A model generated the notes under the pieces. That model had not been told where the DNA came from, did not search any database, and saw only the letters and a program-made list of their open reading frames with translations. The position numbers and the translations under genes are program-made. Positions 69 to 33,803 of a stretch of DNA of 41,169 bases are shown here, one piece after another (the stretch's first letter is position 1; each line of letters starts with the position of its first letter). Source of the stretch: Terriglobia bacterium (GTDB lineage Bacteria; Acidobacteriota; Terriglobia; 20CM-2-55-15); contig DASXLG010000298.1 of assembly GCA_036496425.1 (NCBI GenBank), positions 1 to 41,169 on the forward strand, written 5' to 3'.

Positions 69-788
69 ATGGCGTTTCCTCTTGCACATCCGGCCGCTGT
101 ATTGCCGCTTCGCCGGGTCCGGTGGCTCAAGTTCCCGGCTCTGATCATCGGCAGTATTGTGCCGGATATCGCGTACGTTTACGGTCCAGCCAGCGATTTC
201 TCCCATCAACTGCTTGGCAGTCTTGTGTTTGGCTTGCCGGCAGGCGGATTGATTCTGGCTCTGTTCTACGGCTTCAGGACGAAAGTGATTCAGAGAATGC
301 CCGCAGCTTTGAAGCGATCGCTTCTTCCGCTCTGCCAACGCCCGCCTGGTCCTGTCTGGATCGTCATCCTATCGTTAGTCATTGGGATCTGGAGTCACGT
401 TCTCTGGGATGGCTTCACCCATAAGGATGGCTGGTTCGTCGAGCAGATCCCGATTCTTTCCAAAGTTCTCTTCCAGTATGACGGCCGAACCGCAAGACTT
501 TGCACTGTTCTCTGGTATGCATCATCGTTGCTTGGAGCAATCTGGCTCTTTCTCTCCTTCGAGAAATGGAAAGGGATTGCAGCGCAAGAGACTATGTCCG
601 CTAGGGAAATAGGACGAACCAGGTGGCGGGACGCGATTTTGCTTGCCAGTGCAGTCGTGCCGATTTCACTGCTCCATCATCTGGTACGCAGCCCAATCGG
701 GTTTGTAATGACCGGCGCTTTTTCTCTATCTCTCGGCGTAGTGCTCGTTCTTAGAATGGCTTCAACGGGCGAAGATACTCTAGGCTGA
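69..788 (+). CDS. DUF4184-type integral membrane protein
   Basis: Predicted 239-residue inner-membrane protein. It starts with the pattern LAHPAAVLPLRR (residues 5-16), which I recognise from the DUF4184 family. Hydrophobic segments sit near residues 24-38, 48-68, 96-113, 153-164, 190-206 and 212-228. Polar residues within or next to membrane segments include H7, D33, H46, H110, D114 and H118. The HxxxDxxxH spacing at 110-118 resembles the YdjM / metal-dependent membrane hydrolase superfamily, so a metal site is possible but unproven. The upstream Shine-Dalgarno sequence is weak and the ATG at 69 is chosen because the conserved N-terminus begins there. The gene stands alone and no specific role can be assigned. 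Confidence 0.8.
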   Translation: MAFPLAHPAAVLPLRRVRWLKFPALIIGSIVPDIAYVYGPASDFSHQLLGSLVFGLPAGGLILALFYGFRTKVIQRMPAALKRSLLPLCQRPPGPVWIVILSLVIGIWSHVLWDGFTHKDGWFVEQIPILSKVLFQYDGRTARLCTVLWYASSLLGAIWLFLSFEKWKGIAAQETMSAREIGRTRWRDAILLASAVVPISLLHHLVRSPIGFVMTGAFSLSLGVVLVLRMASTGEDTLG

Positions 789-824
789 AGGAAAGCAAGG
801 CTTTTCCGCCCCTCCTGAATTACA

Positions 825-853
825 TTGACTCCACCTGTTCCCAGGGTTTACAA
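825..853 (+). promoter_or_regulatory. Candidate sigma-70 promoter for the phosphorylase gene
   Basis: TTGACT at 825-830 (5 of 6 to the -35 consensus) is followed 16-17 bases later by a poor -10 (TTTACA/TTACAA at 847-853). The start codon it would serve is at 950. A T-run (920-928) and a strong GAGGAGG ribosome binding site (939-945) lie between. The -10 is weak, so confidence is low. Confidence 0.3.
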
Positions 854-949
854 AAGTTACTGGTACAGCGCCGTACCTCGCGACAATGACGTCCCGGAAC
901 TCTAGGAGTCCCGCGGGCGTTTTTTTTTGGCCGCCATTGAGGAGGATTC

Positions 950-3604
950 ATGAGCACCACTGCCGATGATCGCGATGCCGGCGATGTACTGACTCTCGAA
1001 GAGCTTGGAAATCTCACCAGGGAAGCCGGCAAGCCCGCCGAAACGCTGATGAACGTCGTGGCATTGATTGCGAGCCATTTCCATTCCGACGTCTGTTCGG
1101 CTTATCTGCTGGAGCCCGACCGCGCGACGCTGGTTCTGGCGGCCACGCTCGGTTTGAATCCGGAATGCATCGGCACCCTGCGTATGGCCCTGCACGAAGG
1201 GCTTGCCGGGCTGGTGGCCGAAGAGGTCCGACCGGTGGCCGTCGAGCAGGTCAGCAAGCATCCCCGTTTCAAATATTTCAGCGAAGCCGGCGAGGATGAT
1301 TATCAATCGTTCCTCGGGGTGCCGCTGGTCGAGCGTGGAGTGCTTCAGGGGGTTCTGGTTGTTCAGACCATCGAGCCGCGTCAGTTCCGCGATGTCGAAG
1401 TGCAGATGCTGGTTCAGGCTGCAGCTCAGGTCGCTCCGGTCGTCAGCGAAGCGCGCACGCTCGATCGTTTCGTCGCGCCGACACTGGACCGGTTGTGGTC
1501 TCTGGCCCGGAATCTCTGGTGGGCGTGGGATCACGATTCGACCAGCCTTTTCCGCGACCTCGACCCGGCGCGTTTCCGGCAGCTCAATCACAACCCCGTT
1601 TCTCTGCTGGCCGAGATTCCCCTCGATGGAGTCGAGCGGCGCGCGCAGCAACTGGTCCTTCACAGCCGGATCAATTACGCGTATCGCCGGCAGCGCGAGT
1701 ACCTCGAAGCCGATCGGACATGGGGCGCAAAGCATGCCGGCATTCTGCGTCCCCGGCCGGTGGCATATTTCTCGGCAGAGTTTGGTCTGCACGAATCGAT
1801 ACCGATCTACTCCGGCGGCCTCGGCGTTCTCGCCGGCGACCATATCAAGAGCGCTTCGGATCTGAATATCCCGCTTGTCGGCATCGGGCTGTTCTATGGC
1901 CAGGGTTATTTCCGCCAGCGGCTCGATCGTAACGGCTGGCAGCAGGAAGAGTACCTGGAGACGGATGTGAATTCGCTGCCGATGGAAATTGCCATCGCGG
2001 CCAACGGCCAGCCGGTTATGGTGCAGATCGAAACCTGGAGCGGCGCCATCCGGGCGAGGGTCTGGCGCGTGAAAGTGGGCCGCTGCGATCTGCTTCTCCT
2101 GGATTCGAATGTCAGCGGAAATGCGCCTGAGGACCGCGACCTGACTTCGCGCCTCTACGGCGGTGATGGCCGCGTGCGCATCCGGCAGGAGTTGCTTCTT
2201 GGCGTCGGTGGATTTCGCGCGTTGAAGGCCTTAGGCATCACGCCGGGCGTGCTTCACCTCAACGAAGGGCACAGCGCTTTCGCGGTGCTGGAGGCCATTC
2301 GGAGCCGCAGAGAGGAAGAAGGGATCGGTTTCGAAGAGGCCGCTCGCCGCGTTTCCCGTGAGGTCGTTTTTACAACGCACACGCCGGTCCCCGCCGGCCA
2401 CGACCGTTTCCACCGCGAGCTCGTCGAAGAACATCTCGGACCGTTGCGTCAGGCCCTCGGCCTTTCACACGACAGGCTGATGGAATTCGGCCGCGAAAAT
2501 CCCTTCAATCCCGACGAGGGATTCTGCATGACCGTTCTTGGCCTGAAACTCTCGCGCCGCGCAAACGCCGTTTCGGCACTGCATGGAGAGGTATCGCGTG
2601 CGATGTGGACGGTATTGTATCCGGGCAAGTCTGAAGATGCCGTGCCGATCGGACACATCACCAACGGCGTGCATGTTCCGACCTGGCTCGCGCCACAAAT
2701 GTTCCGCCTCTACGACCGCCACTTCGGTCCGGGCTGGCACGAACACAGCAGCGATCCGGGAATCTGGGAGGGAATCGATCGGGTCGACGACGGCGAGTTG
2801 TGGGAAACGCATCTCAGCCTGAAATCCCAGCTGCTGGAATTCGTCCGCTTGCGCGCGATCGAACAGAACAAACTCCGCGGCGAACCTTCAATAGCCGTCA
2901 GGCGGGTCCTCAGTCCGGATGCTCTGACCATCGGTTTCGCACGCCGGTTTGCGACGTATAAGAGAGCGAATCTGATTCTGGCCGATATCGAGAAGCTTGC
3001 CTCGATGGTGAACGACGCCAAACGGCCAGTTCAATTTATTTTTGCCGGTAAAGCGCATCCGCACGATGAGCCCGGCAAGCGGGTGCTTCAGCAGATTGCT
3101 GAATTGATGAAGCATCGGGAGTTTGGCGACAAGTTTGTCTTTGTCGAGGATTATGACATCAATGTGGGGCGCTACCTCGTTCAGGGCGTCGATGTCTGGT
3201 TGAACAATCCTCGGCGCCCACTCGAGGCATCCGGGACCAGCGGCCAAAAGGTCGTCTTGAACGGCGGCCTCAATCTGTCGATTCTCGATGGCTGGTGGGC
3301 TGAAGCCTACGACGGACTGAACGGCTTCGCGATCGGAACCGGCAGAACGCATACGCGAATGGACATCCACGACACCCGTGACGGCGAAGACCTCTATCGC
3401 GTTTTGCACGACGAGGTCATCCCGCTGTACTACCACCGCGATCACGATGGGCTCCCCCGCGGCTGGATCAAACGGATGAAACGCACGATCCGCACGCTCG
3501 GCTGGCGCTTCAACGCCGACCGCATGGTTATGGATTACACGACCAATTGTTATATTCCGGCTGCGGGCGGCAGGTCGAGCTCATCGGCTGGTGGGCTGAG
3601 TTAA
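950..3604 (+). CDS. glgP: GAF domain-containing alpha-glucan phosphorylase
   Basis: Cytoplasmic GT35 phosphorylase that releases glucose-1-phosphate from the ends of glycogen-like alpha-1,4-glucans, using pyridoxal phosphate. Residues about 33-165 are a GAF domain of the kind found in PtsP and NifA (motifs HEGLAGLVAE and FLGVPLVERG). Residues from about 176 (LWSLARNLWWAWD) match the DUF3417 N-terminal domain of bacterial alpha-glucan phosphorylases, and the catalytic domain fills the rest. The PLP-binding lysine is K767 in EASGTSGQK. SAEFGLHESIPIYSGGLGVLAGDH is split across residues near 275-300 and GEVSRAMW near 545 as expected. At 884 residues it is longer than single-domain members because of the GAF fusion. 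The ATG at 950 has a GAGGAGG site 4 bases upstream. It is convergent with the transglutaminase cluster. Function is confident; the role of the GAF domain is inference. Confidence 0.95.
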   Translation: MSTTADDRDAGDVLTLEELGNLTREAGKPAETLMNVVALIASHFHSDVCSAYLLEPDRATLVLAATLGLNPECIGTLRMALHEGLAGLVAEEVRPVAVEQVSKHPRFKYFSEAGEDDYQSFLGVPLVERGVLQGVLVVQTIEPRQFRDVEVQMLVQAAAQVAPVVSEARTLDRFVAPTLDRLWSLARNLWWAWDHDSTSLFRDLDPARFRQLNHNPVSLLAEIPLDGVERRAQQLVLHSRINYAYRRQREYLEADRTWGAKHAGILRPRPVAYFSAEFGLHESIPIYSGGLGVLAGDHIKSASDLNIPLVGIGLFYGQGYFRQRLDRNGWQQEEYLETDVNSLPMEIAIAANGQPVMVQIETWSGAIRARVWRVKVGRCDLLLLDSNVSGNAPEDRDLTSRLYGGDGRVRIRQELLLGVGGFRALKALGITPGVLHLNEGHSAFAVLEAIRSRREEEGIGFEEAARRVSREVVFTTHTPVPAGHDRFHRELVEEHLGPLRQALGLSHDRLMEFGRENPFNPDEGFCMTVLGLKLSRRANAVSALHGEVSRAMWTVLYPGKSEDAVPIGHITNGVHVPTWLAPQMFRLYDRHFGPGWHEHSSDPGIWEGIDRVDDGELWETHLSLKSQLLEFVRLRAIEQNKLRGEPSIAVRRVLSPDALTIGFARRFATYKRANLILADIEKLASMVNDAKRPVQFIFAGKAHPHDEPGKRVLQQIAELMKHREFGDKFVFVEDYDINVGRYLVQGVDVWLNNPRRPLEASGTSGQKVVLNGGLNLSILDGWWAEAYDGLNGFAIGTGRTHTRMDIHDTRDGEDLYRVLHDEVIPLYYHRDHDGLPRGWIKRMKRTIRTLGWRFNADRMVMDYTTNCYIPAAGGRSSSSAGGLS

Positions 3605-3647
3605 GGGCGTGGTGTAGTTCAATTTGAAGTCCGCTGCAGGCGAGCAA

Positions 3648-3672
3648 CTCCCCTCCTGGAACAGGACGGGAG
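3648..3672. terminator. Hairpin between convergent genes, possible bidirectional terminator
   Basis: Arms CTCCCCTCCTG (3648-3658) and CAGGACGGGAG (3662-3672) pair over 10 of 11 positions with one C/C mismatch and a GAA loop. It sits midway between the ends of the phosphorylase gene (3604) and the transglutaminase gene (3702, opposite strand). There is no T-tract, so it may block transcription or protect mRNA ends rather than act as a classical terminator. Confidence 0.4.
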
Positions 3673-3701
3673 GCTGCCGCCACTGCACTCTTACCCGAAG
3701 T

Positions 3702-4580
3702 CTAACGGCCCTCCGGGCCTATCGCAGCCGCCGGCTGAACGTAAACCTCTACCTCGACCGTCTGGCTGCCGCCGCCCAGGCTGATGCCTTTCACCGGAGT
3801 GACATCCGCATAGTCGCGCCCCCATGCGAGCGTGATGTGGCTGTCGGAAACCATCAGATCGTTTGTAGGATCGAAACCGAGCCAGCCGGCTCCCGGAAAG
3901 AAAACGGAAACCCACGCGTGCGAGGCCTGCGCGCCCTGGACTTTGGGGCCGGGCCGCACGTAACCGCTGACATAGCGCGCCGCCAGCCGCTGTGAGCGCA
4001 CGGCTCCGATCATGACGTGGGCAAAGTCCTGACACACACCGCGGCGGTTTTTCATCACTTCAGCGAGAGGTGTGCTGATGGACGTCGATTGCGGGCGATA
4101 TTTGAAGTCGGCGTGAATCCGATGCGTCAGGTCTTGAATGGTCTCGAGAATCGTCCGGCCGGTAACGAAGCTGGCACGGGCATATTCATCGAGCTGCGGC
4201 GTTACCGAAACGTGCGGCGAACTATAGATGAATTCCGACGCTTCGATGGTTGCCTCATCGGATTGCCCGGCGATCGCCGCTCGAGCGTCATTCCATGACA
4301 TCAGCGGAGGGGGTCCTCCCTTGCCCGGGTTCACTTCCACCACGCTCTCGGAACGAATCTCCAGACGCTCGTGTTTTTCGAAAAGCTCGAATGATGTGAC
4401 GTCGTTCTCGTAATAATCCTTGCGGCCATGCATGAACGCCGGCTCGGGTTGAACATGGATCCCGGTCTTCCGGACGTTCTGATCCGCAAACGTGCGCGGG
4501 GTCAGCCGAACCTCGTTGAGCGAGTGCGAGACCGGAGTCTCATAGATATACCGGGTCGTGTGCGTCACCTGAAACAGCAT
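3702..4580 (-). CDS. Transglutaminase-like family protein
   Basis: A 292-residue protein with the bacterial transglutaminase-like N-terminal domain (residues about 1-95, opening FQVTHTTRYIYETPV) and a transglutaminase/protease core (about 150-245). The triad is visible: C183 in NRRGVCQDFAH, H221 in QASHAWVSV, D237 in GWLGFDPTND. It has no signal peptide, so it is likely cytoplasmic. It is the last gene of the minus-strand cluster, 21 bases after the ATP-grasp/alpha-E gene, whose 3' end carries a GAGGAG stretch. Such proteins next to circularly permuted ATP-grasp and alpha-E genes are predicted to cleave or transfer amide bonds in a peptide pathway. The actual substrate is unknown. Confidence 0.9.
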   Translation of the reverse strand: MLFQVTHTTRYIYETPVSHSLNEVRLTPRTFADQNVRKTGIHVQPEPAFMHGRKDYYENDVTSFELFEKHERLEIRSESVVEVNPGKGGPPPLMSWNDARAAIAGQSDEATIEASEFIYSSPHVSVTPQLDEYARASFVTGRTILETIQDLTHRIHADFKYRPQSTSISTPLAEVMKNRRGVCQDFAHVMIGAVRSQRLAARYVSGYVRPGPKVQGAQASHAWVSVFFPGAGWLGFDPTNDLMVSDSHITLAWGRDYADVTPVKGISLGGGSQTVEVEVYVQPAAAIGPEGR

Positions 4581-4601
4581 CGGCTTATCGAATCGCTCTC
4601 C

Positions 4602-7133
4602 TCACCATGACGCCGTGAAACGGCAGGCTGTCAGGTTGCTGAAGTACCGCTCGGTCAATGCATCCGAAAGATCCCAGAGATCCGTCTTCAGGCTGCCGAC
4701 AAGCTGGTCCAGGGCGCCAAAGCTGCCGCCGGCTTCCCGCCGCGCGATATCCGTCATTGCCGTCGAATGGATCGCATCCAGGGCTTTCGTTACGAGTTCC
4801 TGTTCCGGCGAGTTTCCCGCTCCCTCCTCGCGCGCCTGCAGGCGCACGAACTGGTGGTGCAGGGTGGCCAGTTGAAAGGCCACGGATCGTGGATTCGATT
4901 CATCCGCAACCAGCAGTTCCAGGACTAGATCGGTCTGGACCACGGTCGGATACCGCCGGCGATACGTGATCGAACTGTCCGCAATCTGCAGCAGAACGTG
5001 CAGAGACGGCTCTACATCGGCGGTGGCGGAATCCAGACTCGAATGCAGCAGTTCGGAAGTCTGGAGCGCGCGCTCCATGCGGCGGCCGATTTCCAGAAAC
5101 CGCCAGCCGGCGCCGCGTGTCGTGTTTTCCATGAGGAGGCCTGAAAAGGCCGAAAGGGTGAGAACGGCGTTGTCGAGCAGGTCCAGGCCCCCGGCATACC
5201 GCTGCTCCGCACTTGCGGGCGCAAAACTCGAGAAGTGCGACTCGAGCTGTTGAAGCGTTCTCCAGGTGTCCGATGAAAGCTGTTCTTTCAGGTGCCACGC
5301 CACCCGCCGCAGCTCTTTCAGATTCCAACGAAGACTCGAAGTCTGCGATGGGTCGTAGACCATCTCCGTCAGCGACCGTTGAACGGACCAGCGCTGTTCC
5401 CCGATAGATGCGGTCGACGCTTCCTCCGGCAGATATGCCATGCCCGCCAGCAGCCGGACTGCGGTTTCAAGCGAGACGGCGCGGCCGAAATCTTCTTCGC
5501 TGGAGACCGCCGGCCACAGCGTTCGCAGGAACCGCACGCGGGCTTCGACTCGTTCGGCATAGCGGCCGAGCCAGAAAAGGTTGTCGGCGACGCGGCTCGG
5601 CAGATCATCCCGGGTCGAGCGCACTGAAATCTGAAGCGATGACTGGTGGCGCGCCGGCACTGCTTCGTCGGGCCGTCCCAGAACCCAGGTATCTTTGCTG
5701 CGTCCTCCCAGGTGCATCGAAACCACAAGCGAGGAGTCCTGAGTCGAGACTCGCGTCAAGCCGCCCGGCAGCGCGGCGTACGAGTTGCCTTTGCGCGCCG
5801 CGTAAACGCGCAGCACGGCGTGCCGTGGAACAATACCGTTGTCCGCGTAGACGGGAATGGTGGAGAGCGCCACCCTTTCCTGCGCCACGAAGTCTTGCGG
5901 CCGCGATTCGATTCTTTTTACCAGCGCCTCGTATGCCGGGCGACGCATCGTTCCCGGGAAATCCGGATGCTGGCCGACCCGGGAGAAGGCGGGCTTGATC
6001 ACCAGTTCTTTGAAGTGCTCTTCAACGTACCGGCGCGGAACGTCCTGTCCGCACCACCACGTTGCGACCGAAGGCATTTTCAACTCCTCGGCGAGCAGGT
6101 GCCGGCAGAGGCCGGGCAGGAATGCCATCAATGCGGGCGTTTCAACCAGGCCGCTGCCGAGTGCGTTGTCGATCACGACAGAACCGTTTCGCACAGCCTC
6201 GACCAGGCCGGGCACACCCAGAAGCGAATCGCCACGCAGTTCCAGCGGATCGGCGAAACTGTCGTCGACCCGCCGGAGAATGACATCGACGGGCTTCAAA
6301 CCGGCCAGCGTCCTGAGATAAACCCGGCGGTCCAATACGGTCAGGTCCGCGCCCTCCGCCAGTGTGAAGCCCCATTGTCCCGCGAGAAACGAATGCTCAA
6401 AATAGGTTTCGCTGTTCGGCCCGGGTGTCAGCAGCACGATCGTCGGGTGCGATCCCCCGTTTGGCGCAAGCGAGAGCAGCGCGTCGCGCTTCATGTCATA
6501 GAAGCGCGCGAGCTGGCGCACCTGGGCGCGGTCGAACACATCCGGAAGCGTTCTGGCGCTGACCAGCCTGTTCTGCAGCGTATAGCCCATGCCGGACGGC
6601 GCTTGAGTCCGGTCGGCAATCACCCACCAACTCCCCGATGGCGAGCGGGCGATGTCCATCGCATAGCTGTGAAGATGGCCTCCGCCCTTCGGCGTAATTC
6701 CAAAACATGCGCGCAGGAAATGAGGATTCGCCAGCACCAGCGCTGCCGGAAGGAGGCGCTGGTGAATCAGGCGCTGCTCGCCGTAGAGATCGGAAAGGAT
6801 CGCATTCAAAAGCGCGGCGCGCTGGATCACGGCCTGTTCGATCGCTGCCCATTCGGAGGCGCTGATGACCAGCGGAATGGGATCCATCGGCCATGAATAC
6901 TCGCTGCCGTCGGCAAGATTCCCGACATTGTAGGTGATGCCCTGAGATTGGATGAGTTGCTGGCTGGTGCGCCAGCGCCGGCTCAGCTGGTCAAAACCCA
7001 TCCGGCCAAGTTCTACGAACAGTTTTCGCCAGTGACGCCGTGGGAATACGGAAGGGAGAAGAGCTTCGTCCCAGTAGTCCGGCAGCGGCCTGTATTGGAG
7101 GCGGTTCGTTTCTGTATTGGTCCGTACGGGCAC
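4602..7133 (-). CDS. Circularly permuted ATP-grasp / alpha-E domain fusion protein
   Basis: An 843-residue fusion. Residues about 20-490 form a circularly permuted type-2 ATP-grasp domain (family blocks ITYNV near 66, DRTQAPSGMGYTLQNR near 174-189, VIDNALGSGLVE near 320-331, LVIKPAFSRVG near 377-387, PVYADNGIVPRHAVLRVYAA near 427-446). Residues from about 510 (PSRVADNLFWLGRYAERVE) to the end form an all-helical alpha-E (DUF403) domain. In many genomes these are two adjacent genes; here they are joined. ATP-grasp enzymes ligate a carboxylate to an amine via an acyl-phosphate, so peptide or amide bond formation is the likely chemistry, but no substrate is known. The start is GTG at 7133, two bases after the stop of the transglutaminase/DUF2126 gene, with AAGG just upstream, suggesting translational coupling. 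Confidence 0.93.
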   Translation of the reverse strand: MPVRTNTETNRLQYRPLPDYWDEALLPSVFPRRHWRKLFVELGRMGFDQLSRRWRTSQQLIQSQGITYNVGNLADGSEYSWPMDPIPLVISASEWAAIEQAVIQRAALLNAILSDLYGEQRLIHQRLLPAALVLANPHFLRACFGITPKGGGHLHSYAMDIARSPSGSWWVIADRTQAPSGMGYTLQNRLVSARTLPDVFDRAQVRQLARFYDMKRDALLSLAPNGGSHPTIVLLTPGPNSETYFEHSFLAGQWGFTLAEGADLTVLDRRVYLRTLAGLKPVDVILRRVDDSFADPLELRGDSLLGVPGLVEAVRNGSVVIDNALGSGLVETPALMAFLPGLCRHLLAEELKMPSVATWWCGQDVPRRYVEEHFKELVIKPAFSRVGQHPDFPGTMRRPAYEALVKRIESRPQDFVAQERVALSTIPVYADNGIVPRHAVLRVYAARKGNSYAALPGGLTRVSTQDSSLVVSMHLGGRSKDTWVLGRPDEAVPARHQSSLQISVRSTRDDLPSRVADNLFWLGRYAERVEARVRFLRTLWPAVSSEEDFGRAVSLETAVRLLAGMAYLPEEASTASIGEQRWSVQRSLTEMVYDPSQTSSLRWNLKELRRVAWHLKEQLSSDTWRTLQQLESHFSSFAPASAEQRYAGGLDLLDNAVLTLSAFSGLLMENTTRGAGWRFLEIGRRMERALQTSELLHSSLDSATADVEPSLHVLLQIADSSITYRRRYPTVVQTDLVLELLVADESNPRSVAFQLATLHHQFVRLQAREEGAGNSPEQELVTKALDAIHSTAMTDIARREAGGSFGALDQLVGSLKTDLWDLSDALTERYFSNLTACRFTASW

Positions 7134-7135
7134 AG

Positions 7136-10100
7136 CTACCTTGAAGTTCCTCGTCTACGGAGATCTAAGGTTGACGGAAACTCGGGATTCACATCCAGCC
7201 GCGGAACATCGACGCGGCCGGGTGTATGTCCCAGCGCAAAGAATCGCGTGAGGCGGCGCGCTTCCGCTTCGTTCGAGTTCACCGGAAACGTGTCATAGCT
7301 AAGGCCGCCGGGGTGTGCAACATGATATGTGCAGCCGCCGATCGATTGCTTTGCCGCAAGATCCACGACATCGAACACCAGCGGCGGGTGTACGGGAATT
7401 GTGGGGTGAAGGCAGCGCGGGGGCTGCCAGGCGCGGTAACGTACGGCGCAGACGAAATCCCCGTTTGTCCCGGTTGGCTGCAACGGCAGCCTTTGCCCGT
7501 TGCAGGTGACGGCGAACTTTTCTGCGGCCAGGCCCTTCACGCGCACCTGCATGCGCTCGACGGACGAATCCACGTAACGGGCCGTTCCACCCGCGCCCGG
7601 CTCTTCCCCAAGAACGTACCAGGGTTCGATTGCCTGCCGCAGTTCCACTTCAACACCGTCGTAACACACCCGGCCGTAAACCGGAAAACGAAATTCGAAG
7701 TGCGGAGCAAACCAGCCTTCATCGATGTCGTAGCCCGCTTCCTGCAGATCACGGACAATGGACCGAAAGTCCTTTTCGACAAAATACGGCAGCAGAAACA
7801 GGTCGTGAAGCCGGGTTCCCCAGCGGATCGGCTTTTCCTGATAAGGCGCGCGCCAGAACCAGGCGACGAGCGCGCGCACCAACAGTTGCTGGGCGAGGCT
7901 CATTCGCGCGTGCGGCGGCATCTCGAAAGCGCGCATCTCGACGAGGCCGAGCCGTCCTGTCGGGCTGTCGGGGGAATACAGCTTATCGATGCAGAATTCG
8001 GCCCGATGGGTGTTGCCCGTCACATCAACCAGCAGATTTCGAAATATGCGATCCACCAGCCAGGGCGGACAGTCTCCGTTCCGCGACTGACCGAGGACGT
8101 CGAAAGCGAGTTCCAGTTCATATACCGCATCGCTGCGGCCCTCATCGGCGCGTGGAGCCTGGCTCGTTGGGCCGATGAAGACTCCGGAAAACAGATAGGA
8201 GAGCGCGGGGTGGTTCAACCAATATCCGACGAAGCTTCTTAAGAGGTCGGGACGCCTCAGGAATGGACTGTCCGCCGGTGAAATTCCGCCAAGCGTGACA
8301 TGATTGCCGCCGCCTGTTCCGGTGTGCCGTCCGTCCAGCATGAATTTTTCCGTTGCCAGACGGGTCAGCCGCGCCTGCTCATACAAGGCAACCGTGTTGT
8401 CCACGAGTTCGCGCCAGCTTGTTGCCGGGTGAACATTCACTTCGATGACTCCCGGATCGGGCGTGACCTTGATCACCCGCAGTCTTGGATCGTTCGGAGG
8501 GGGATAGCCTTCGATGAGCACCGGCATGCGCAGCCGCGCGGCCGTCCGCTCAACCGCGGCGATCAGCTCCAGATAGTCTTCTATTGAGCCGGTGGGTGGA
8601 AGGAATACCCAGAGGCGGCCGTCTCGAGCCTCGACCGTAACCGCCGTGCGAACGACGGCCCCGGCGTGAGCTTCGACAGGAGCGGCCGTCGCTTCGAGTC
8701 TCGGCTGCCGAAGGGGCGGCAGCGGCAACGGCTTCGCCGGCGCCATCGGATCGACGACCCATAGTTGCCGGATTTTGTCCTCGGGTTCCCAGGGCAGGCT
8801 GTGCAAGGGAAGACGAAATCCCACGGGGGAGTCACCGGGCACCAGAAATAAATGGTGCGCCCGCAGCATCCATAACCCCGTCTGCCATTCCGGTCCGCAC
8901 TTCCCGATTCCGCGCTGAAGCGGCAGCACAAAACCTACGGGACTCCCGATACCGCGCTCGAAAACACGCCTCATCCGCTCGCGCTCTTCGGGATTGTCGA
9001 GCTTGTTGTCTTCGGGAGCGACATTAACGGGGAGTTCCCGCTCTTTGAGCAGATACTCGAGCGGGTCTTCATACGCCGTGATGACGTAATCCGGATGTAC
9101 CGACAAGGTATGCGCAAACTCTTCGGCAAAGCGCTGCGCTTCGCCCGCACCGAAACAGTAATTGCGATCCGGATCTGCCACCCATTGCGGATCGTTCCAC
9201 AGCGCCAGACCGTCCGTTCGCCAATAGCAGCTGAACGCCCACCGGGGAAGGGATTCGCCGGGATACCATTTGCCTTGTCCGAAGTGCAGGAAGCCGGCCG
9301 GCGCAAAATGTTGCCGCAGACGCTTCAGAAGGACGCCGCCCAGCCGTAATTTCTCAGGACCGAGTGCGGCTGTATTCCATTCCTCGCCGTCCATGTCATC
9401 GATTGAAATAAACGTCGGTTCGCCGCCCATGGTGAGGCGCACGTCCCCCGCCTTCAGTTCGGCATCGATCTGATCGCCGGCTGCACACATCCGCGACCAT
9501 TGCTCTTCGGTGTAGGGTTTGGTAACGCGGGGATCTTCATGAATGCGCGTCACGCGCATTTCATGGAAGAACTCCACCTCGCACGGGCTCACAAGACCGG
9601 TCACCGGCGCTGCGGACGGAGGCTCCGGAGTTGCGGCCAGTGGAATGTGGCCTTCGCCGGTCAGCAGTCCCGACGTCGGATCGAGCCCGACCCAGCCCGC
9701 TCCGGGGAGATAGACTTCGGCCCACGCATGCAGGTCTGTGAAATCTTCGCCAGGTCCCACCGGACCTTCGAGAGGCTTCACGTCCGGCTTCAACTGGATC
9801 AGATAGCCGGAAACAAATCGCGCGGCGAGTCCGAGCCGGCGCAGCGTCTGGACCAGGAGCCATGCGGAGTCACGGCACGAACCGCTGGCGCGTTCGAGCG
9901 TCTCCTCGGGGCTCTGGATGCCCGGCTCCATTCGAATGACGTACCGGACCTCGCCTTGCACCCGCCGATTGAGCTCAACGAAGAAATCGATAGTGCGAAC
10001 TTCACTGCGGTCGATCGACGACAGAAACTTCTCGAGCTGCGGGCCGAGCGGCGCCGCCGGTTCGAGGAAAGACCGGAGTTCCCGCTCTTCCTGCAGTTCA

Positions 10101-10417
10101 TATTCGAACGGGTATTTCTCCGCGTAAGGCTCGAGAAAAAAATCGAACGGGTTGATCACCGTGATGTCCGCCACGAGACTGACTTCCAGGGAGAATACCG
10201 GGGTCTCTTTCAGAAAAACCAGCCGCGCCAGGAAATTACCGAACGGGTCCTGCTGCCAGTTGATGAAGTGATCCTTGGGTTCGATGTTCAGAGCGTAACT
10301 CATTACCTGCGTGCGGCTGTGCGGAGCCGGACGCAAACGGACGATCTGCGGCGAAAGCGTGACCAGCCGGTCATACTTGTAAACAGTCTTGTGATGCAGT
10401 GCGACTCGAATGCCCAT
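7136..10417 (-). CDS. Transglutaminase-DUF2126 fusion protein
   Basis: A 1093-residue protein. It has a transglutaminase-like N-terminal domain (residues about 1-115, opening RVALHHKTVYKYDR), a transglutaminase core (about 150-260) with C181 in SGSCRDSAW, H230 in TDLHAWAE and D246 in WVGLDPTSG, and then a large DUF2126 region (about 300-1093), where DVRLTMGGEPTFISIDD near 325-342 and GTGGGNHVTLGG are recognisable. The fusion is the usual architecture of this family. No signal peptide is seen. It lies 16 bases downstream of the SEC-C gene and 2 bases upstream of the ATP-grasp gene on the same strand, so the cluster is probably one transcript. DUF2126 has no assigned activity. The start codon ATG at 10415-10417 lacks a strong ribosome binding site. 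Confidence 0.93.
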   Translation of the reverse strand: MGIRVALHHKTVYKYDRLVTLSPQIVRLRPAPHSRTQVMSYALNIEPKDHFINWQQDPFGNFLARLVFLKETPVFSLEVSLVADITVINPFDFFLEPYAEKYPFEYELQEERELRSFLEPAAPLGPQLEKFLSSIDRSEVRTIDFFVELNRRVQGEVRYVIRMEPGIQSPEETLERASGSCRDSAWLLVQTLRRLGLAARFVSGYLIQLKPDVKPLEGPVGPGEDFTDLHAWAEVYLPGAGWVGLDPTSGLLTGEGHIPLAATPEPPSAAPVTGLVSPCEVEFFHEMRVTRIHEDPRVTKPYTEEQWSRMCAAGDQIDAELKAGDVRLTMGGEPTFISIDDMDGEEWNTAALGPEKLRLGGVLLKRLRQHFAPAGFLHFGQGKWYPGESLPRWAFSCYWRTDGLALWNDPQWVADPDRNYCFGAGEAQRFAEEFAHTLSVHPDYVITAYEDPLEYLLKERELPVNVAPEDNKLDNPEERERMRRVFERGIGSPVGFVLPLQRGIGKCGPEWQTGLWMLRAHHLFLVPGDSPVGFRLPLHSLPWEPEDKIRQLWVVDPMAPAKPLPLPPLRQPRLEATAAPVEAHAGAVVRTAVTVEARDGRLWVFLPPTGSIEDYLELIAAVERTAARLRMPVLIEGYPPPNDPRLRVIKVTPDPGVIEVNVHPATSWRELVDNTVALYEQARLTRLATEKFMLDGRHTGTGGGNHVTLGGISPADSPFLRRPDLLRSFVGYWLNHPALSYLFSGVFIGPTSQAPRADEGRSDAVYELELAFDVLGQSRNGDCPPWLVDRIFRNLLVDVTGNTHRAEFCIDKLYSPDSPTGRLGLVEMRAFEMPPHARMSLAQQLLVRALVAWFWRAPYQEKPIRWGTRLHDLFLLPYFVEKDFRSIVRDLQEAGYDIDEGWFAPHFEFRFPVYGRVCYDGVEVELRQAIEPWYVLGEEPGAGGTARYVDSSVERMQVRVKGLAAEKFAVTCNGQRLPLQPTGTNGDFVCAVRYRAWQPPRCLHPTIPVHPPLVFDVVDLAAKQSIGGCTYHVAHPGGLSYDTFPVNSNEAEARRLTRFFALGHTPGRVDVPRLDVNPEFPSTLDLRRRGTSR

Positions 10418-16571: not shown

Positions 16572-19500
16572 ATGAGCATGAAGACAAAATTGCAGTTGGC
16601 TGTTTTTCTCTCCCTGGCCGCAGTTTCCAGCCTTGCCGCGCAAACCACTCCGGCGAGCTCTCCGGACTTCTTCGAGGCGAAGATCCGGCCCGTTCTGATC
16701 AAGAACTGTTACACCTGCCATACCGGATCGCAGATGGGCGGATTGCGTCTGGATAGCCAGGAAGCGGTGATGAAGGGAGGCAATCGCGGTCCCGTCGTCG
16801 TGCCGGGCAAGGCGGCCGGAAGCCTGCTCGTTACGGCGATCCAGCAGACGGATCCTTCCCTGAAAATGCCCCTGGGCGGCAAACTCACCGATGCGGAAAT
16901 AAGCGATTTCACGGCATGGATCGACGCTGGAGCCGTCTGGCCGAAAAATGCGGCAACAGCCGCTGCCAACGATGGCAAATATATCGTTTATCCGGAACAG
17001 AAGGAATTCTGGTCGCTGGTTTCGCTGAAGACGACCAAAGTCCCTGCTGTGAAAGATGTCAAGTGGCCGAAGACCGATCTCGATCACTTTGTTCTTGCGC
17101 GGCTCGAGAAAGATGGACTGAAGCCGGTCGCGCCGGCTTCGAAGCGTGATTTGATCCGGCGCGCATCGCTCGATCTCACAGGGCTCCCGCCGACCTACGA
17201 AGAGATTCAGGCCTTCGAGAAGGACACCTCGGCGAACGCGTTCGCCAAAGTCGTCGACCGGCTTCTGGCCTCACCGCAGTACGGCGAGCGATGGGGTCGT
17301 GTATGGCTGGACGTCGCGCGTTACGGCGAAGATGACTATCGCAGTCTGAATCCGAATCCGAAGGGCTATCGCCCGTACCCCAATGCGTACGCCTATCGCG
17401 ACTGGGTCATTCAGGCCTTCAATGACGACATGCCTTTCGACAAGTTCGTGAAGGCGCAGATCGCAGGTGATCTGGTCGATCCGCAAGACCGGCCCAAAAT
17501 GCTCGCCGGCACCGGATTCCTTGGACTGGGTCCCTGGTACTACGACAACGGCGCGTTTGAAATCACCCGGGCCGATGAGCGTCATGACCGGGTTGACGCT
17601 GTCACACGCGGTTTTCTCGGCCTGACCGTGGGGTGCGCCCGCTGCCACAACCACAAGTACGATCCCATTCCTCAGACCGACTACTACTCCCTGGCCGGTG
17701 TTTTCTACAACACGATTTATGAAGAATATCCCGGCGCTCCCAAGAAAATCGTCGATGAATACGCGAAGCTCGAAGACGAACTCGACAAAGAGCAGAAAAT
17801 TCTGCAGGAAGCCACAACGGCTTCTACCGACACACTTTCCCGCTCGCTGGTTTACCAGACATCCAACTATCTGATGGGCGTCTGGGATGTTACCCAGACC
17901 GGTACGGCGAAGAAAGAGATCGCCCAGGTCGTCGAGCAGCGAAAGCTCGATTACGAACTCCTCGACCGCTGGATCAAGTACATGGCCAAGCCGACCACGA
18001 AGTACAAAAACAAGGATGCCTGGCAGGCCATGATCAAGAAAGGCGGCACGCAGCAGGATGCGAAACGGCTGGCCGACAAATTCCAGGAAGAAGTCGTCGC
18101 CGCCATGCTCGAAAAGAACGACATCGACGGCGAGAACAAAGTCATCCAGGCGAAAGACCTCGACGGCACCAAGCCGAAGAAGCGCACCGACAAGCCGAGC
18201 AATTTCATGTCATTCAAGGATTTCAATCCCGGATCATGGCTCCGCTTGAAGAGCCTGCCGGATGAGCAGAACAACTTCTGGACCGAAATCTTCCAGCGCG
18301 AGCTGAAGGATGAAGAAGATCCCAACGCGATGCCGATGAACGGACGGCAGGGAAATCCCGGCGTCCTTTTGTTCCGCGGCTGGGGACTGGAAAGCCGGAT
18401 CGGCGAGGAAGCCCAGGCACGAATCAAGAACATCCAGAGCGACGTTGATGCCGTCAAGAAAAAGATGGAAGTTCATTACCCCTTCATTCACGGCGTCAGG
18501 GATTCCGAAAAGCCGGAAGACATCCCGGTGGCGTTCCGCGGAGATCCGAACAATCCGACCGGAAAGCCGGTCCCGCGGCACTTCCTGAGTCTGCTTTCCG
18601 AAGGCGACCCGAAGCCCTTTACGCAGGGAAGCGGACGCCTGGAGCTGGCGGAAGCGATCTCGAAGCAGCCGCTCGCCCTGCGGGTTTTCGTCAATCGAAT
18701 CTGGAAAGGACATTTCGGAACAGGCATCGTCGACACGCCGAGCAATTTCGGAACTGCCGGCGAGCGTCCGACCAATCCGGAGCTGCTCGAGTACATGGCA
18801 AATTACTTCGTTTCACACGGAACATCCGTGAAAGCCCTTCAGCGGGAAATCATGCTGAGTTCCGTGTATCAGCTCAGCACGGCCGACAACGCGGAAGACT
18901 TCGCCAAGGATTCCGGCAACCGGCTCTATTGGCGCGCCGAGAAGAAGCGTCTCGATGCGGAAGAGCTTCGCGATGGCGTTCTTTTCACGGCCGGCAATCT
19001 CGACAATGCGATGGGCGGCCCTTCCGCCGATCTGACTCCGGCCAACCTGCGCCGCACGGTGTACGGCAAGGTCAGCCGCTACAAACTCGACGAATATCTG
19101 CAACTCTTCGATTTTCCGAGCCCGAGTATCAGCGCCGAAAAACGCTTCGTGACCACGGTCCCATTACAGCGCCTCTTCCTGATGAACAGCGATTTTATGC
19201 AGATCGAGGCCGAAGAGCTGGCAAAGCGCGTGGCGAACGAAACCGACAATCGCGCCCGCATCAAGAGAGCCTACGAATACGTCTACGGCCGTGACGCGAC
19301 AGAAGAAGAAATCGGGCTGGGCTTGAACTACCTCAGGAGTGAGCCGTTGACCGAATACGACGAAGGCAAGACTCGAGCGCCGGCGCCCGGAGCCGGCGGC
19401 CGTCGCGGAGGACGCGGCGGCGCTCAGGGACAAGCGAAAGGACCGGCAGGGTCGGCTGGAAAGGCTGCCGCGCAGGCAAAGAGCGCTGACGGTGACGATA

Positions 19501-19838
19501 AGCCGGCCGAAACGGCTGCACTGGCTGCAGCAGACAAACCGGAAGGGGCAAAGCCCGCAACAGAGGCGGCCAAACCCGCACCGGCGGCCGAAGCAGCCGC
19601 CGAGCCAACCGCCGAGCCAACCGCCGAACCGGCCGACGGCGCGGTGGCCGATACAGCCACAGCGGATGCCGGCGGCGACGGCGCCGCTCCAGCTCAACCG
19701 ATGGGCATGGGAATGATGGGCGGCATGGGCCGGCGAGGCGGCGTTGCCGCAACTCCCGAAGTTAAATATGACGTCAGCGTCTGGGGCCGCTACACCAAGG
19801 TCCTGTTCAGCTCCAGCGAGTTCCTGTTTATTAACTAA
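16572..19838 (+). CDS. Cytochrome c / DUF1549-DUF1553 protein (PSCyt1 type)
   Basis: A 1088-residue exported protein. Signal peptide at residues 1-23 (second possible start at 16578). Residues about 33-120 are a Planctomycete-type cytochrome c module with the haem motif C46-Y-T-C49-H50, then GGLRLDSQEAVMKGG and LKMPLGGKLTDAEI. DUF1549 follows (about 165-370; TDLDHFVLARLEKDGL, LTGLPPTYEEI, RWGRVWLDVARYGEDD) with a second CxxCH, C355-A-R-C358-H359, typical of the family. DUF1553 occupies about 680-930 (FVNRIWKGHFGTGIVDTPSNFG). A G/A/P/E-rich low-complexity insert of about 120 residues (about 935-1060) separates it from the conserved end (SSSEFLFIN). It probably carries electrons in the periplasm, paired with the next gene (DUF1501). 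No substrate is known for this family. Confidence 0.93.
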   Translation: MSMKTKLQLAVFLSLAAVSSLAAQTTPASSPDFFEAKIRPVLIKNCYTCHTGSQMGGLRLDSQEAVMKGGNRGPVVVPGKAAGSLLVTAIQQTDPSLKMPLGGKLTDAEISDFTAWIDAGAVWPKNAATAAANDGKYIVYPEQKEFWSLVSLKTTKVPAVKDVKWPKTDLDHFVLARLEKDGLKPVAPASKRDLIRRASLDLTGLPPTYEEIQAFEKDTSANAFAKVVDRLLASPQYGERWGRVWLDVARYGEDDYRSLNPNPKGYRPYPNAYAYRDWVIQAFNDDMPFDKFVKAQIAGDLVDPQDRPKMLAGTGFLGLGPWYYDNGAFEITRADERHDRVDAVTRGFLGLTVGCARCHNHKYDPIPQTDYYSLAGVFYNTIYEEYPGAPKKIVDEYAKLEDELDKEQKILQEATTASTDTLSRSLVYQTSNYLMGVWDVTQTGTAKKEIAQVVEQRKLDYELLDRWIKYMAKPTTKYKNKDAWQAMIKKGGTQQDAKRLADKFQEEVVAAMLEKNDIDGENKVIQAKDLDGTKPKKRTDKPSNFMSFKDFNPGSWLRLKSLPDEQNNFWTEIFQRELKDEEDPNAMPMNGRQGNPGVLLFRGWGLESRIGEEAQARIKNIQSDVDAVKKKMEVHYPFIHGVRDSEKPEDIPVAFRGDPNNPTGKPVPRHFLSLLSEGDPKPFTQGSGRLELAEAISKQPLALRVFVNRIWKGHFGTGIVDTPSNFGTAGERPTNPELLEYMANYFVSHGTSVKALQREIMLSSVYQLSTADNAEDFAKDSGNRLYWRAEKKRLDAEELRDGVLFTAGNLDNAMGGPSADLTPANLRRTVYGKVSRYKLDEYLQLFDFPSPSISAEKRFVTTVPLQRLFLMNSDFMQIEAEELAKRVANETDNRARIKRAYEYVYGRDATEEEIGLGLNYLRSEPLTEYDEGKTRAPAPGAGGRRGGRGGAQGQAKGPAGSAGKAAAQAKSADGDDKPAETAALAAADKPEGAKPATEAAKPAPAAEAAAEPTAEPTAEPADGAVADTATADAGGDGAAPAQPMGMGMMGGMGRRGGVAATPEVKYDVSVWGRYTKVLFSSSEFLFIN
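19599..19634 (+). repeat. 12-bp tandem repeat inside a coding region
   Basis: GCCGAGCCAACC occurs twice exactly (19599-19622), followed by a third decayed copy, encoding AEPTAEPTAEPA in the low-complexity insert of the DUF1549 protein. It is a small in-frame minisatellite, the kind of sequence that expands by replication slippage. Confidence 0.7.
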
Positions 19839-19856: not shown

Positions 19857-21410
19857 ATGTCACAACACAAAGCAAGTAATCCGATGACTCGCCGCGAGGC
19901 CTTGTGCCGGATGGGTGGTGGTTTCGGCATGATGGCCTTCGCCAGCCTCGTGGGTCAGTCCGTCAATTACGCCCAGGGAATTGTTGCGCCGGACGGAACA
20001 GGCGGCGTCGCGACCCTCGACTATCCGCAACGCGTGAAGCGCGTGATTTTTCTCTTCATGAATGGTGGATGCTCCACCATCGATTGCTTCGATCCAAAAC
20101 CCGCTCTCGAAAAATATGACGGCCAACCGATGCCCGGCGGCAGCGTCAAGACCGAGCGGCGTACCGGCGAGCTGATGAAGTCGCCGTTTAAATTCAAGAA
20201 GTACGGCGAGTGCGGCATGGACGTCAGCGAACTCTGGCCGCATCTCGGCGAATTCGCCGACGAGATCGCCTGGGTGCGTTCGGTCTATACCGATATTCCG
20301 AATCATGAACCGGCCTGTCTGATGGTGAACACCGGAGCCAATCAGGCGGGCCGCCCCTCGATGGGCGCATGGATGACCTATGGCCTGGGCACGGACAACA
20401 AGAGTCTACCCGGATTCGTGGTTTTGAGTCCCAATCTGCCGACCACAGTAGGTTCGCCGCTATGGAGCAATGGCTTCCTGCCTGCCGTCAATCAGGGGAC
20501 CTTCATCTCTTCACGAATCCAGACCCGGCCGAACTCCGATGGTGACGACGACATGGCAGATATGCCGGATCCCGCCGCGGCCGCCGGCGATAAGGGCAAA
20601 GACGGCAAAGAGAAACAGAAAAAAATTGTCGTCGAACAGGCCTTTGATCCGAAAAAACTCATCAGCTTCGTGAACAATCCGAAATTTCAGATGACCGAGC
20701 AACGCCGCGAAATGGACCTTTTGGAAAAAATGGAAGCCATCGACCGTCAGCGCGTCGGATCGAGCGCCAATGTTGAAGCCGTACTGAAATCCATGGAAGT
20801 TGCTTACCGGATGCAGACGGAAGCCCCTGAAGTCTTCGACGTGCGGAAGGAATCACAGGCAACGCTCAATCTTTATGGCGAAGGCACAACCGCGCGCGGC
20901 TGCCTGCAGGCGGCCCGGCTCGTCGAAAAAGGCGTTCGTATCGTGCAGGTGTTCTATGCCAGCGGCGACCCATGGGATGCTCACGCCGATATCATGGCGC
21001 ACAAGGTCAACGCCAAGAACTCCGACCAGGCCTATGCTGCACTGCTCAAAGATCTCAAACAGCGCGGACTGTGGAAAGACACGCTGGTCGTCTGCGGCTC
21101 CGAGTTCGGCCGGACTCCAGTCCGCGAAGTCGGCGGCAACGGTACCGGAGTGAAACGCGGCCGCGACCACAATCCATTCGGGTTCACGATGTGGCTGGCC
21201 GGCGGCGCCGTCAAAGGCGGCACCATCTACGGCTCAACCGACGAGTTCGGTTTCAAGGCCGTCGAGAAGCCCGCGCACGTTCATGACATCCACGCCACCA
21301 TCCTTTATTTGATGGGCATCGATCACAAGAAACTGACCTACCGCTATAGCGGCCGCGATTTCCGCCTGACCGATGTGGCGGGCAACGTCATTCATGAGTT
21401 GATCGCATGA
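19857..21410 (+). CDS. Tat-exported DUF1501 family protein
   Basis: A 517-residue protein with an alkaline phosphatase/sulfatase-like DUF1501 fold. The N-terminus has a twin-arginine signal (TRREALCRMGGGFGMMAFAS, R12-R13), so it is folded before export, often with a cofactor or metal. Family blocks: RVIFLFMNGGCSTIDCFDPK near 62-81, SVYTDIPNHEPACLMVNTG near 142-160, GRPSMGAWMTYGLG, CGSEFGRTPV near 419-428, GRDHNPFGF and the C-terminal HATILYLMGIDHKKLTYRYSG. A D/K-rich insert (about 225-260, SDGDDDMADM... KDGKEKQKK) is missing from the paralogue at 37085. AGAGGA (19844-19849) is 7 bases before the ATG. It follows the DUF1549 gene by 18 bases, a pairing seen very widely, so the two products probably act together. 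Confidence 0.94.
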   Translation: MSQHKASNPMTRREALCRMGGGFGMMAFASLVGQSVNYAQGIVAPDGTGGVATLDYPQRVKRVIFLFMNGGCSTIDCFDPKPALEKYDGQPMPGGSVKTERRTGELMKSPFKFKKYGECGMDVSELWPHLGEFADEIAWVRSVYTDIPNHEPACLMVNTGANQAGRPSMGAWMTYGLGTDNKSLPGFVVLSPNLPTTVGSPLWSNGFLPAVNQGTFISSRIQTRPNSDGDDDMADMPDPAAAAGDKGKDGKEKQKKIVVEQAFDPKKLISFVNNPKFQMTEQRREMDLLEKMEAIDRQRVGSSANVEAVLKSMEVAYRMQTEAPEVFDVRKESQATLNLYGEGTTARGCLQAARLVEKGVRIVQVFYASGDPWDAHADIMAHKVNAKNSDQAYAALLKDLKQRGLWKDTLVVCGSEFGRTPVREVGGNGTGVKRGRDHNPFGFTMWLAGGAVKGGTIYGSTDEFGFKAVEKPAHVHDIHATILYLMGIDHKKLTYRYSGRDFRLTDVAGNVIHELIA

Positions 21411-27976: not shown

Positions 27977-29652
27977 TTCGTCTCCGCGGCCTTCTTCGGT
28001 TGTTCCGGCAGTGGCGGCGGCACGGGCGCCGGATCATTCGGTCCGAGGTGCATCACTTCGCGCAACGTGGCGATGACGTCTTCGCGCGAATCGCGCCGGG
28101 GACGCCAGGCGCGCGCATCGGTATTGTTCCCCGGCGGTGGCGGCGGTTCGGGTTTTTCGGCCAGCAGCAGCGGGGTCAGGTTGTCCTTGTTCACGGCGTC
28201 GAGACTGGCGCCTGCGGTCACTAGGGCGCGAATCATGTCGGTCCGGCGCGCCGTAACGGCCTGATGAAGAAGCGACGCGCCATCGGTTGTCTTTGCATTC
28301 GGATTGGCCCCGGCGTCGAGCAGTACTTTTAGCGCTTCACCCGGGTCGCGGCTCGCCGCTTCGCGATATGGAGGCGCGATTAACCGTTCAAATCCGGGCC
28401 CGGCAGCGAATGCGGCGCCGCGGCCGCCGGCCAGCGCCATCATCGCCGGCGTTTTGCCGACATTGGCGTTCGCGCCGCGTCCACCACCGCCGCCGGCGGC
28501 GGCCTCACCATCCTTTTTCTTATTGACCTCCGCCGGGCTCCACTCGAGTTTCGCCCCATGCCGGATCATCAGCTTGAGCGCTTCGACATCGGCGGCGATC
28601 GCCGCCCGGAAGAACGGCGACGCGTTTTGCTCCGCATCGCAGCACAGCGAGGTATTGTGGATTGCGCCGACAAACGGTTTGTTGGGATCGGCGCCGCGCT
28701 CGAGCAGCAGACCGACAAGGTCGAGCGCCGTGAGCTGATTGGGATGATCGGCGCGAAGGCGCGAGCCGTCGTGGGCGCGCATGTCGGTCGTCGCGTCGTG
28801 CATGTCGACGGCGAAGAAAAGCGCGCCGTCGTTTGGATCGGCTCCGAGGTCGAGCAGGATCTTCGCCAGGTCGAAGCGGTCGTTGACGATCGCGATCGAT
28901 GTCGCGGTGACGCCATCGCCGTTCGTGGCTTTCAAATCGGCGCCGCCCTTGACGAGCGCCCGCACCACGTTCTCATGCCCGTTGCGTACCGCGAACATCA
29001 GCGCCGTGAAGCCGCCTGTAGGATGGTCTGCGTTCTTCCGCGTTGTGAGTGATGAAACGTGCGCCTTGGCGTTCGGATTGGCTTTCGCGGCGAGAAGCGC
29101 ATTAACGACGTCGACGTGCCCTTCTTCTGCAGCCCACATCAGCGCCGTTTCCTGTTGGTAGTTCTCGGAGGCGTTCGGATCGGAACCCGCCTCGAGCAAC
29201 AGTTCGACAGCGTCGAGCTTGCCGGTCCGCGCCGCAGCCATCAGAGGTGTCTCGCCCTCGGGGTGTACGGCTCGGGCGACATTCGCGCCCGCCTTCAGCA
29301 GTTCCGCAATCATCGGCGTATCACCCGTCCGGCTGGCCTGCAGCAGGGGAGTGACGCCGTAGTGGTTGGACGTCGTGAAGTTTGCGCCGGCCGCGATCAA
29401 CGCGCGCACCATCGGCAGATCCGAGTGGTATACGGCCCAAAGCAGCGCCGTGGAGCCGTCGCGCGCCGTCTCGTTGACATCGGCATGCCTGACGAGCAGC
29501 GTGTGCACCGCCTCGAAGTCACCATCTCTTGCAGCGGCGACGACCGCGGGATCACCGATCGCCTCCATCACCTGCGAAAGTACCGCGGCGAATATCATCA
29601 GGAACGTTAGCGAGATCAATAGCCAGCGAGTCAACTGTCCTCGTGTACTCAT
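27973..29652 (-). CDS. Exported or membrane-anchored ankyrin-repeat protein
   Basis: A 559-residue protein. One hydrophobic helix (about residues 9-30, RWLLISLTFLMIFAAVLS) serves as signal peptide or anchor. About ten ankyrin repeats follow, with the usual consensus: DGSTALLWAVYHSDLPMVRAL, GVTPLLQASRTGDTPMIAEL, GETPLMAAARTGKLDAVELL, ETALMWAAEEGHVDVVNAL, GFTALMFAVRNGHENVVRAL and more, ending near residue 500. A Gly/Ala/Lys-rich loop (about 385-405) and a Pro-rich tail (about 515-559) are low complexity. Ankyrin repeats bind proteins, so it may scaffold the cytochrome and DUF1552 proteins encoded by the two genes after it (its 3' end overlaps the cytochrome start by four bases). It is the first gene of that operon, and AGGGG lies shortly before the ATG. 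Confidence 0.92.
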   Translation of the reverse strand: MSTRGQLTRWLLISLTFLMIFAAVLSQVMEAIGDPAVVAAARDGDFEAVHTLLVRHADVNETARDGSTALLWAVYHSDLPMVRALIAAGANFTTSNHYGVTPLLQASRTGDTPMIAELLKAGANVARAVHPEGETPLMAAARTGKLDAVELLLEAGSDPNASENYQQETALMWAAEEGHVDVVNALLAAKANPNAKAHVSSLTTRKNADHPTGGFTALMFAVRNGHENVVRALVKGGADLKATNGDGVTATSIAIVNDRFDLAKILLDLGADPNDGALFFAVDMHDATTDMRAHDGSRLRADHPNQLTALDLVGLLLERGADPNKPFVGAIHNTSLCCDAEQNASPFFRAAIAADVEALKLMIRHGAKLEWSPAEVNKKKDGEAAAGGGGGRGANANVGKTPAMMALAGGRGAAFAAGPGFERLIAPPYREAASRDPGEALKVLLDAGANPNAKTTDGASLLHQAVTARRTDMIRALVTAGASLDAVNKDNLTPLLLAEKPEPPPPPGNNTDARAWRPRRDSREDVIATLREVMHLGPNDPAPVPPPLPEQPKKAAETK

Positions 29653-33725: not shown

Positions 33726-33791
33726 TGTAGGCGCGGTCGGCGAAGCGCAAGCGCGGCAGCGCGCAAGCCCTGAGTCATGACCGTGCCTACA
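33726..33791 (+). repeat. PAL-A repeat, copy 4 (complete, intergenic)
   Basis: A 66-bp element. The outer arms TGTAGGCGCGGTC (33726-33738) and GACCGTGCCTACA (33779-33791) pair over 13 positions (one G-T). The core GCGAAGCGCAAGCGCGGCAG contains the inner hairpin GCGC-GGCA-GCGC (33751-33762). It begins 2 bases after the receptor stop codon and its end merges with the AGGAGG site of the next gene, so it fills the whole intergenic gap. Confidence 0.88.
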
Positions 33792-33803
33792 GGAGGCATC
33801 CAG

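Follow-up and report, generated by a model that had tools for sequence, protein, structure and literature searches.

A glucan phosphorylase of Acidobacteria with a fused PtsP-type GAF domain, a putative small-molecule sensor

The DNA analysed here (hereafter the window) is a single stretch of 41,169 nucleotides, and near its beginning one open reading frame encodes a GAF domain, a DUF3417 domain and the catalytic region of an alpha-glucan phosphorylase (Table 1). A sequence-only reading had proposed this fusion, and it was confirmed by the domains found with Pfam and NCBIfam. The N-terminal part was recognized by Pfam as GAF_2 at residues 31-164 (53.6 bits, cut-off 28.6) and as GAF at residues 30-162, and the Phosphorylase family has its best stretch at residues 434-782 (94.2 bits, cut-off 27). 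With the NCBIfam models the protein exceeds the curated cut-off of TIGR02094 and gives 81.6 bits to TIGR02093 (the GlgP/MalP type), below the cut-off of 552.9. The conserved C-terminal motif contains K767, which, from what is known of GT35 enzymes, we take to be the pyridoxal-phosphate lysine; it is aligned with the lysine of structure 9l6i, and it is invariant in the 74 full-length fusions drawn from the window and the best 80 of 594 relatives (see below). Judged by its sequence, the product is a TIGR02094 phosphorylase with an intact phosphorylase signature, predicted to catalyze the phosphorolysis of alpha-1,4-glucan.

Table 1. Features of the fused gene and its product (positions in the window)
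Feature	Position	Strand	Basis or remarks
Fused gene, PtsP-type GAF + DUF3417 + alpha-glucan family phosphorylase, 884 aa	950..3604	+	ATG start
Ribosome-binding site AGGAGG of the fused gene	940..945	+	Read directly; 4 bases to the ATG at 950
GAF domain, about residues 29-170, flanking helices as in PtsP GAF 3ci6	1034..1459	+	Pfam, PtsP model, fold match
Conserved GAF segment, residues 104-125 (HPRFKYF...GED.YQSFLGVP)	1259..1324	+	Alignments; putative role in a ligand pocket
Helix 148-171, leading from GAF to DUF3417, proposed signal path	1391..1462	+	AF2 models; putative role in signalling
DUF3417, residues 178-284	1481..1801	+	Pfam, 93.1 bits (cut-off 25)
Alpha-glucan phosphorylase catalytic region, residues 271-869	1760..3556	+	TIGR02094 (NCBIfam), 821.9 bits (curated cut-off 191.7)
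EASGTSGQKVVLN, residues 759-771, contains K767	3224..3262	+	Aligned with EASGTSGEKAEMN of 9l6i

The G+C content of the fused gene is ordinary for the window, and no match to a sigma-70-type promoter was found within positions 700-3800. The minus strand at 3702-10417 encodes a transglutaminase-like protein, a circularly permuted ATP-grasp protein with an alpha-E domain and a transglutaminase-DUF2126 amidoligase fusion (Pfam). Farther along lie PSCyt/PSD ("Planctomycete cytochrome") and DUF1501 genes (16572-19838, 19857-21410, 25412-27976 and 33777-37049), an ankyrin protein (27973-29652) and an outer-membrane barrel (29975-33724).

Scored by itself, the GAF part reaches 116.1 bits with the PtsP model NF008283, over residues 28-174, and 37.9 bits with NifA. 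The whole protein gives 111.9 bits to NF008283, below the cut-off of 583, and the match stops at residue 177 with no enzyme I part. An AF2 model of the GAF part (residues 1-194; pLDDT 76.4, pTM 0.73, with blocks within 51-160 at 87-96) matches the PtsP GAF 3ci6 over residues 6-174 with Z 24.1 and an rmsd of 2.1 over 158 residues, and the PtsP GAF 3trc with Z 22.7. The next fold has Z 19.8, the value found for 4mmn, the GAF of free methionine-R-sulfoxide reductase, which falls behind both PtsP GAFs. The domain, for which kinship with PtsP had been suggested from the letters, is indeed a PtsP-type GAF by sequence and fold, 3ci6 and 3trc being the best matches in both respects. The AF2 model of the whole protein has pLDDT 68.5 and pTM 0.57, the joint at 171-197 lying under pLDDT 50, and its catalytic part matches 9l6i with Z 31.8; because the rmsd is 7.2 despite this Z, the domain arrangement of the whole model is not trustworthy. 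In both models there is a long helix at 148-171, and the DUF3417 helix begins at 177 or 179. The modelled junction is short, the long helix being followed by the first DUF3417 helix (177-191), in keeping with the earlier statement that DUF3417 and the catalytic domain come directly after the GAF.

The GAF of PtsP (enzyme I-Ntr; 3ci6, 3trc) resembles that of the window protein in its sequence signature, in its fold with both flanking helices and in its position N-terminal to a metabolic enzyme. It is fused to enzyme I in PtsP, whereas here the partner is a glucan phosphorylase and the GAF has an invariant R106/K108 pair. Two Segatella copri structures, 9l6i and 20yr (TIGR02094 with DUF3417), are the closest solved relatives of the enzyme part in sequence. 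They are 39 and 38% identical to the window protein (Foldseek) and share DUF3417, the catalytic core and the K767 motif, but the chain of 9l6i matches from residue 182 of the window protein, with no more than 28 residues preceding the match, which leaves no room for a GAF domain. The window's genome also has a GAF-less copy of its own (G000:C273:9516-11597) that comprises DUF3417 and the catalytic part, with 46% identity to the window protein. The E. coli enzymes GlgP and MalP (TIGR02093 type) have the GT35 fold in common with it, but their structures, in the available parts of the records, present bound AMP and HPr and not a fused sensor. Among the open-access papers listed, none points to the fusion by its title or abstract start, and the word GAF is absent from the accessible part of a review (PMC11046441). 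The fusion is a seemingly undescribed combination of two known domains, spread through the class and under selection.

Full-length fusions are present in 11 of 61 genomes, the window's included, the other ten having 65-81% identity. In the class, GAF plus DUF3417 (residues 1-292, E≤1e-50) was matched in 65 of 399 genomes distributed over many families (f1, f3, f4, f5, f6 and f9), which gives the combination the taxonomic spread that the sequence-only reading had left to a domain search. Since the query covered residues 1-292 only, the presence of the enzyme part follows from the open frame of at least 872 residues found in 60 of the 65 (G676, among these, is reported with an in-frame TAG); the five outside this set are G577, G645, G526, G651 and the frame-broken G042. 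The copy in G042 (C6:55967-58148) is split over several frames, and its residues 320-446 have no match, which points either to decay of the gene or to errors of assembly. An even sample of the phylum gave matches in 26 of 396 genomes at E≤1e-30, six of them including the GAF (G000, G224, G057, G021, G073 and G212, the stretch from the last ending inside the fusion protein), while the remaining 20 matches start at residue 161 or later. These 20, together with the GAF-less copy of the window's own genome, bear out the earlier remark that related phosphorylases often lack the sensor domain.

A scan of the genomes of 84,980 species gave 594 relatives, of which the best 80, all taken to be Acidobacteriota, have 69-82% identity over a range beginning at residue 1-13 and ending at 292. 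The window and these 80 make up 81 loci, of which 79 (all except L078 and L119) have an open fused frame, 74 of them full length; the conservation counts in this paper refer to those 74 proteins. Within the window's genus the intact fusion is present in two of six genomes, several of the assemblies being incomplete, and G002 has only a C-terminal fragment. There was no fusion among 72,556 plasmid records: 46 matched, none covering 80% of the query, and there was no DNA match. The fusion architecture is widespread in the class, and many Acidobacteria carry it.

The mean frequency of the major residue in the 74 fusions (from the window and the best 80 of 594 relatives) is 0.846 for the GAF, 0.826 for DUF3417 and 0.867 for the catalytic part, and 0.564 for residues 1-28. 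Among the 14 closest pairs, which have members in common, dN/dS ranges from 0.016 to 0.121 in the GAF and from 0.027 to 0.074 in the catalytic part, the GAF value being the higher in six pairs. The GAF is under strong purifying selection and is conserved nearly like the enzyme. In the same 74 proteins R78, E83, G84, L85, R106, K108, E115, G123, P125 and Q139 are found without exception, and H104, S120 and F121 in 73. Four fusions and three PtsP GAFs have 28 columns in common, among them V48, C49 (also present in PtsP), S50, Y52, T66, G68, L69, G84, G87, A90, H104, F107, G114, E115, S120, G123, P125 and Q139. The sequence-only reading had named a degenerate binding pocket as evidence against a sensor; as far as the alignments indicate, the putative pocket appears intact, with segment 104-125 near-invariant in these 74 of the best relatives and the 28 columns invariant with PtsP GAFs.

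The gene neighbourhood links the fusion to glycogen in four carriers. The cluster of G007 runs glgC, glgB (opposite strand), the fusion, malQ, glgA with phosphofructokinase (opposite strand) and PEP carboxykinase, the malQ frame following the fusion after 4 bases, and the six neighbours in G010 are identical in kind; G007 and G010 are deep-branching carriers. The fusion and glgC frames of G006 are on one strand, 15 bases apart, and in L107 glgA lies about 1.9 kb downstream of the fusion. When the six proteins of the G007 cluster were used as queries in 97 loci (five of them without the fusion, and some being doubles of one genome), none was found in any locus beyond G006, G007, G010 and L107. 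In 20 carriers tested, glgC is over the cut-off in all and glgA in 18 (not G009 and G224), so that glycogen synthesis should be possible there. No neighbourhood is common to the fusions at large: in the 81 loci (window and best 80 of 594 relatives; all frames of at least 150 residues, counting only the first 14 kb of the window, and at least 2 kb on both sides in 54 of 79 loci) the commonest non-overlapping neighbour family occurs in eight. Pfam domains of ten representative neighbours reveal no common theme, and flanking DNA matches in 45 of 2628 upstream and 16 of 2556 downstream pairs. A glutamate synthase family lies beside the fusion in three loci, which we read as chance.

A tree of 51 phosphorylases was built without the GAF; it is a quick build with long branches in some rows, and places 11 chosen fusions on one side of a branch with support 99, opposite the 40 GAF-less enzymes. 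The fusions placed in the tree share one origin and form one clade. Next to them are two groups from the phylum whose members have no GAF (3 and 17 rows), joined in a fork that the tree leaves unresolved, and the GAF-less relatives have 51-58% identity to the enzyme. G220, one of these GAF-less neighbours, carries a GH57 gene some 1.7 kb upstream. The window fusion is 81% identical to that of its genus mate G001, 67-79% to those of other family members and 75-83% to those of 24 carriers of other families; the corresponding values for rpoB are 97%, 89-95% and 73-81%, many in the last group being based on just the larger of two pieces. In a set of 27 genomes, the medians for the fusion are 0.81 within families and 0.79 between them, compared with 0.88 and 0.80 for rpoB. 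The two sets of identities still correlate (rho 0.45, 27 genomes), and rows of one family mostly cluster in the fusion tree. Starred branches of that tree force the window's family to appear twice, but this is a point where long branches join (G007/G010 with G073). The fusion and the GAF-less copy diverge at similar rates inside the window's family, with identities of 81 and 86%, respectively, for G001 and of 79 and 80% for G006. The close copies of the GAF-less enzyme are 86-90% identical in the genus and 80-82% in three further family members, other matches in 35 genomes reaching at most 51%. Saturation at a small number of free sites could flatten the identity curve of the fusion. Because similarity between families is about the same as within them, unlike that of rpoB, and because the gene contexts are unrelated, the fusion may have moved horizontally from family to family as a single gene, a proposal that is supported but not proven.

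The sequence-only reading saw in the fusion direct allosteric control of glycogen breakdown, perhaps by a nitrogen- or energy-status ligand, and as a whole this interpretation is partly supported. From the conserved features of the GAF we consider it probable that the activity of the glycogen/maltodextrin phosphorylase is set by a small molecule on the N-terminal domain. Binding of this ligand would shift helix 148-171, which enters DUF3417, and the shift would change the seating of the N-terminal part on the catalytic core and hence catalysis; the signal would most likely travel through this helix. By homology the likeliest ligands would be glutamine and/or 2-oxoglutarate. In E. coli PtsP, glutamine is inhibitory and 2-oxoglutarate stimulatory, and the GAF is needed for binding; according to the same review, glutamine control is kept in other species, though not validated everywhere (PMC13104625). 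In Caulobacter PtsP the GAF change L83Q abolishes the response to glutamine (PMC4848567). Glutamine as the ligand of the fusion is a guess by analogy, as is the direction of control, for which PtsP physiology would suggest that glutamine (nitrogen plenty, carbon need) promotes glycogen use and 2-oxoglutarate opposes it.

PTS enzyme I is over the family cut-off in four of 20 carriers (G000, G006, G007 and G009), all in the window's family; the matches in G001, G010 and G646 are strong but partial and stay below it. A blastp search of all frames in the four enzyme I stretches for a relative of the GAF gave nothing below E 0.1, and the enzyme I of G007 shows, in the part given, only three enzyme I domains (Pfam). 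With 16 of the 20 carriers having no enzyme I over the cut-off and the other four no trace of this GAF, the domain seems to work outside the nitrogen PTS, and the PtsP sensor appears to have been recruited to another circuit.

The claim of a sensor is shared by a second reading, a real if tentative possibility, in which R106 and K108 would hold another, anionic ligand such as a sugar phosphate, PEP or a nucleotide. Both residues, and R78 as well, occur in 74 of the 74 fusions from the window and the best 80 of 594 relatives, while the pair occurs in none of five PtsP GAFs compared: positions 106 and 108 are A/D/S and T/A/A in three PtsP GAF rows, R and A in 3ci6, and A and K in 3trc. Since the pair is invariant in the fusions and absent as a pair from PtsP, glutamine need not be the ligand, and the ligand may differ. 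The cAMP-bound GAF of Lcd1 (5w10) is among the fold matches of the GAF model, and E. coli glycogen phosphorylase structures with AMP, as far as the accessible records go, give a precedent for energy-status control of bacterial phosphorylases. The other conserved residues, however, are PtsP-like, and in both sequence and fold the PtsP GAFs come closest by a clear margin.

GAF domains can dimerise, and the domain might be a structural module that holds a dimer or aids the folding of DUF3417 with no ligand at all; purifying selection by itself does not show ligand binding, and the adjoining DUF3417 is equally conserved. We regard this as unlikely, for the strictly kept residues, many of them within segment 104-125 and the set shared with PtsP, would go beyond what a dimer surface needs, and the GAF-less relatives at 51-58% identity manage without the domain. 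Still less probable is that the GAF serves to dock another protein such as an HPr/NPr-like phosphocarrier, as suggested by the structure of E. coli glycogen phosphorylase with HPr (9s8k, from the accessible part of its record), given that just the four carriers of the window's family have enzyme I over the cut-off and three others only partial matches. Although the window comes from a fragmented assembly (407 contigs), an artefact of assembly or gene calling can be dismissed, practically with certainty, as the independent assemblies with full-length fusions include the single-contig genomes G718 and G722 among the 60 of 65 with long open frames as well as L110 (Paracidobacterium acidisoli 4G-K13), and an AGGAGG ribosome site precedes the start of the GAF.

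Returning to the preferred reading, a fused ligand sensor would, if true, add another mode of control beside the AMP and HPr binding of the solved E. coli glycogen phosphorylases and would couple carbon storage directly to one more metabolite. Acidobacteria are common in soil, and the carriers may adjust directly how they draw on stored carbon. A broader version, that many Acidobacteria possess a one-step nitrogen control of glycogen breakdown in which the GAF reads glutamine against 2-oxoglutarate without a phosphorelay, on an enzyme spread sideways as a single gene, is conceivable but doubtful.

Two carriers have a further short phosphorylase, located at 72799-74460 in G224:C41, next to 70464-72548, and at 1034507-1036174 in G718:C1, near 1030194-1032278. 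Each is on the strand opposite to the nearby fusion, and both match the GAF-less query only from residue 92-95.
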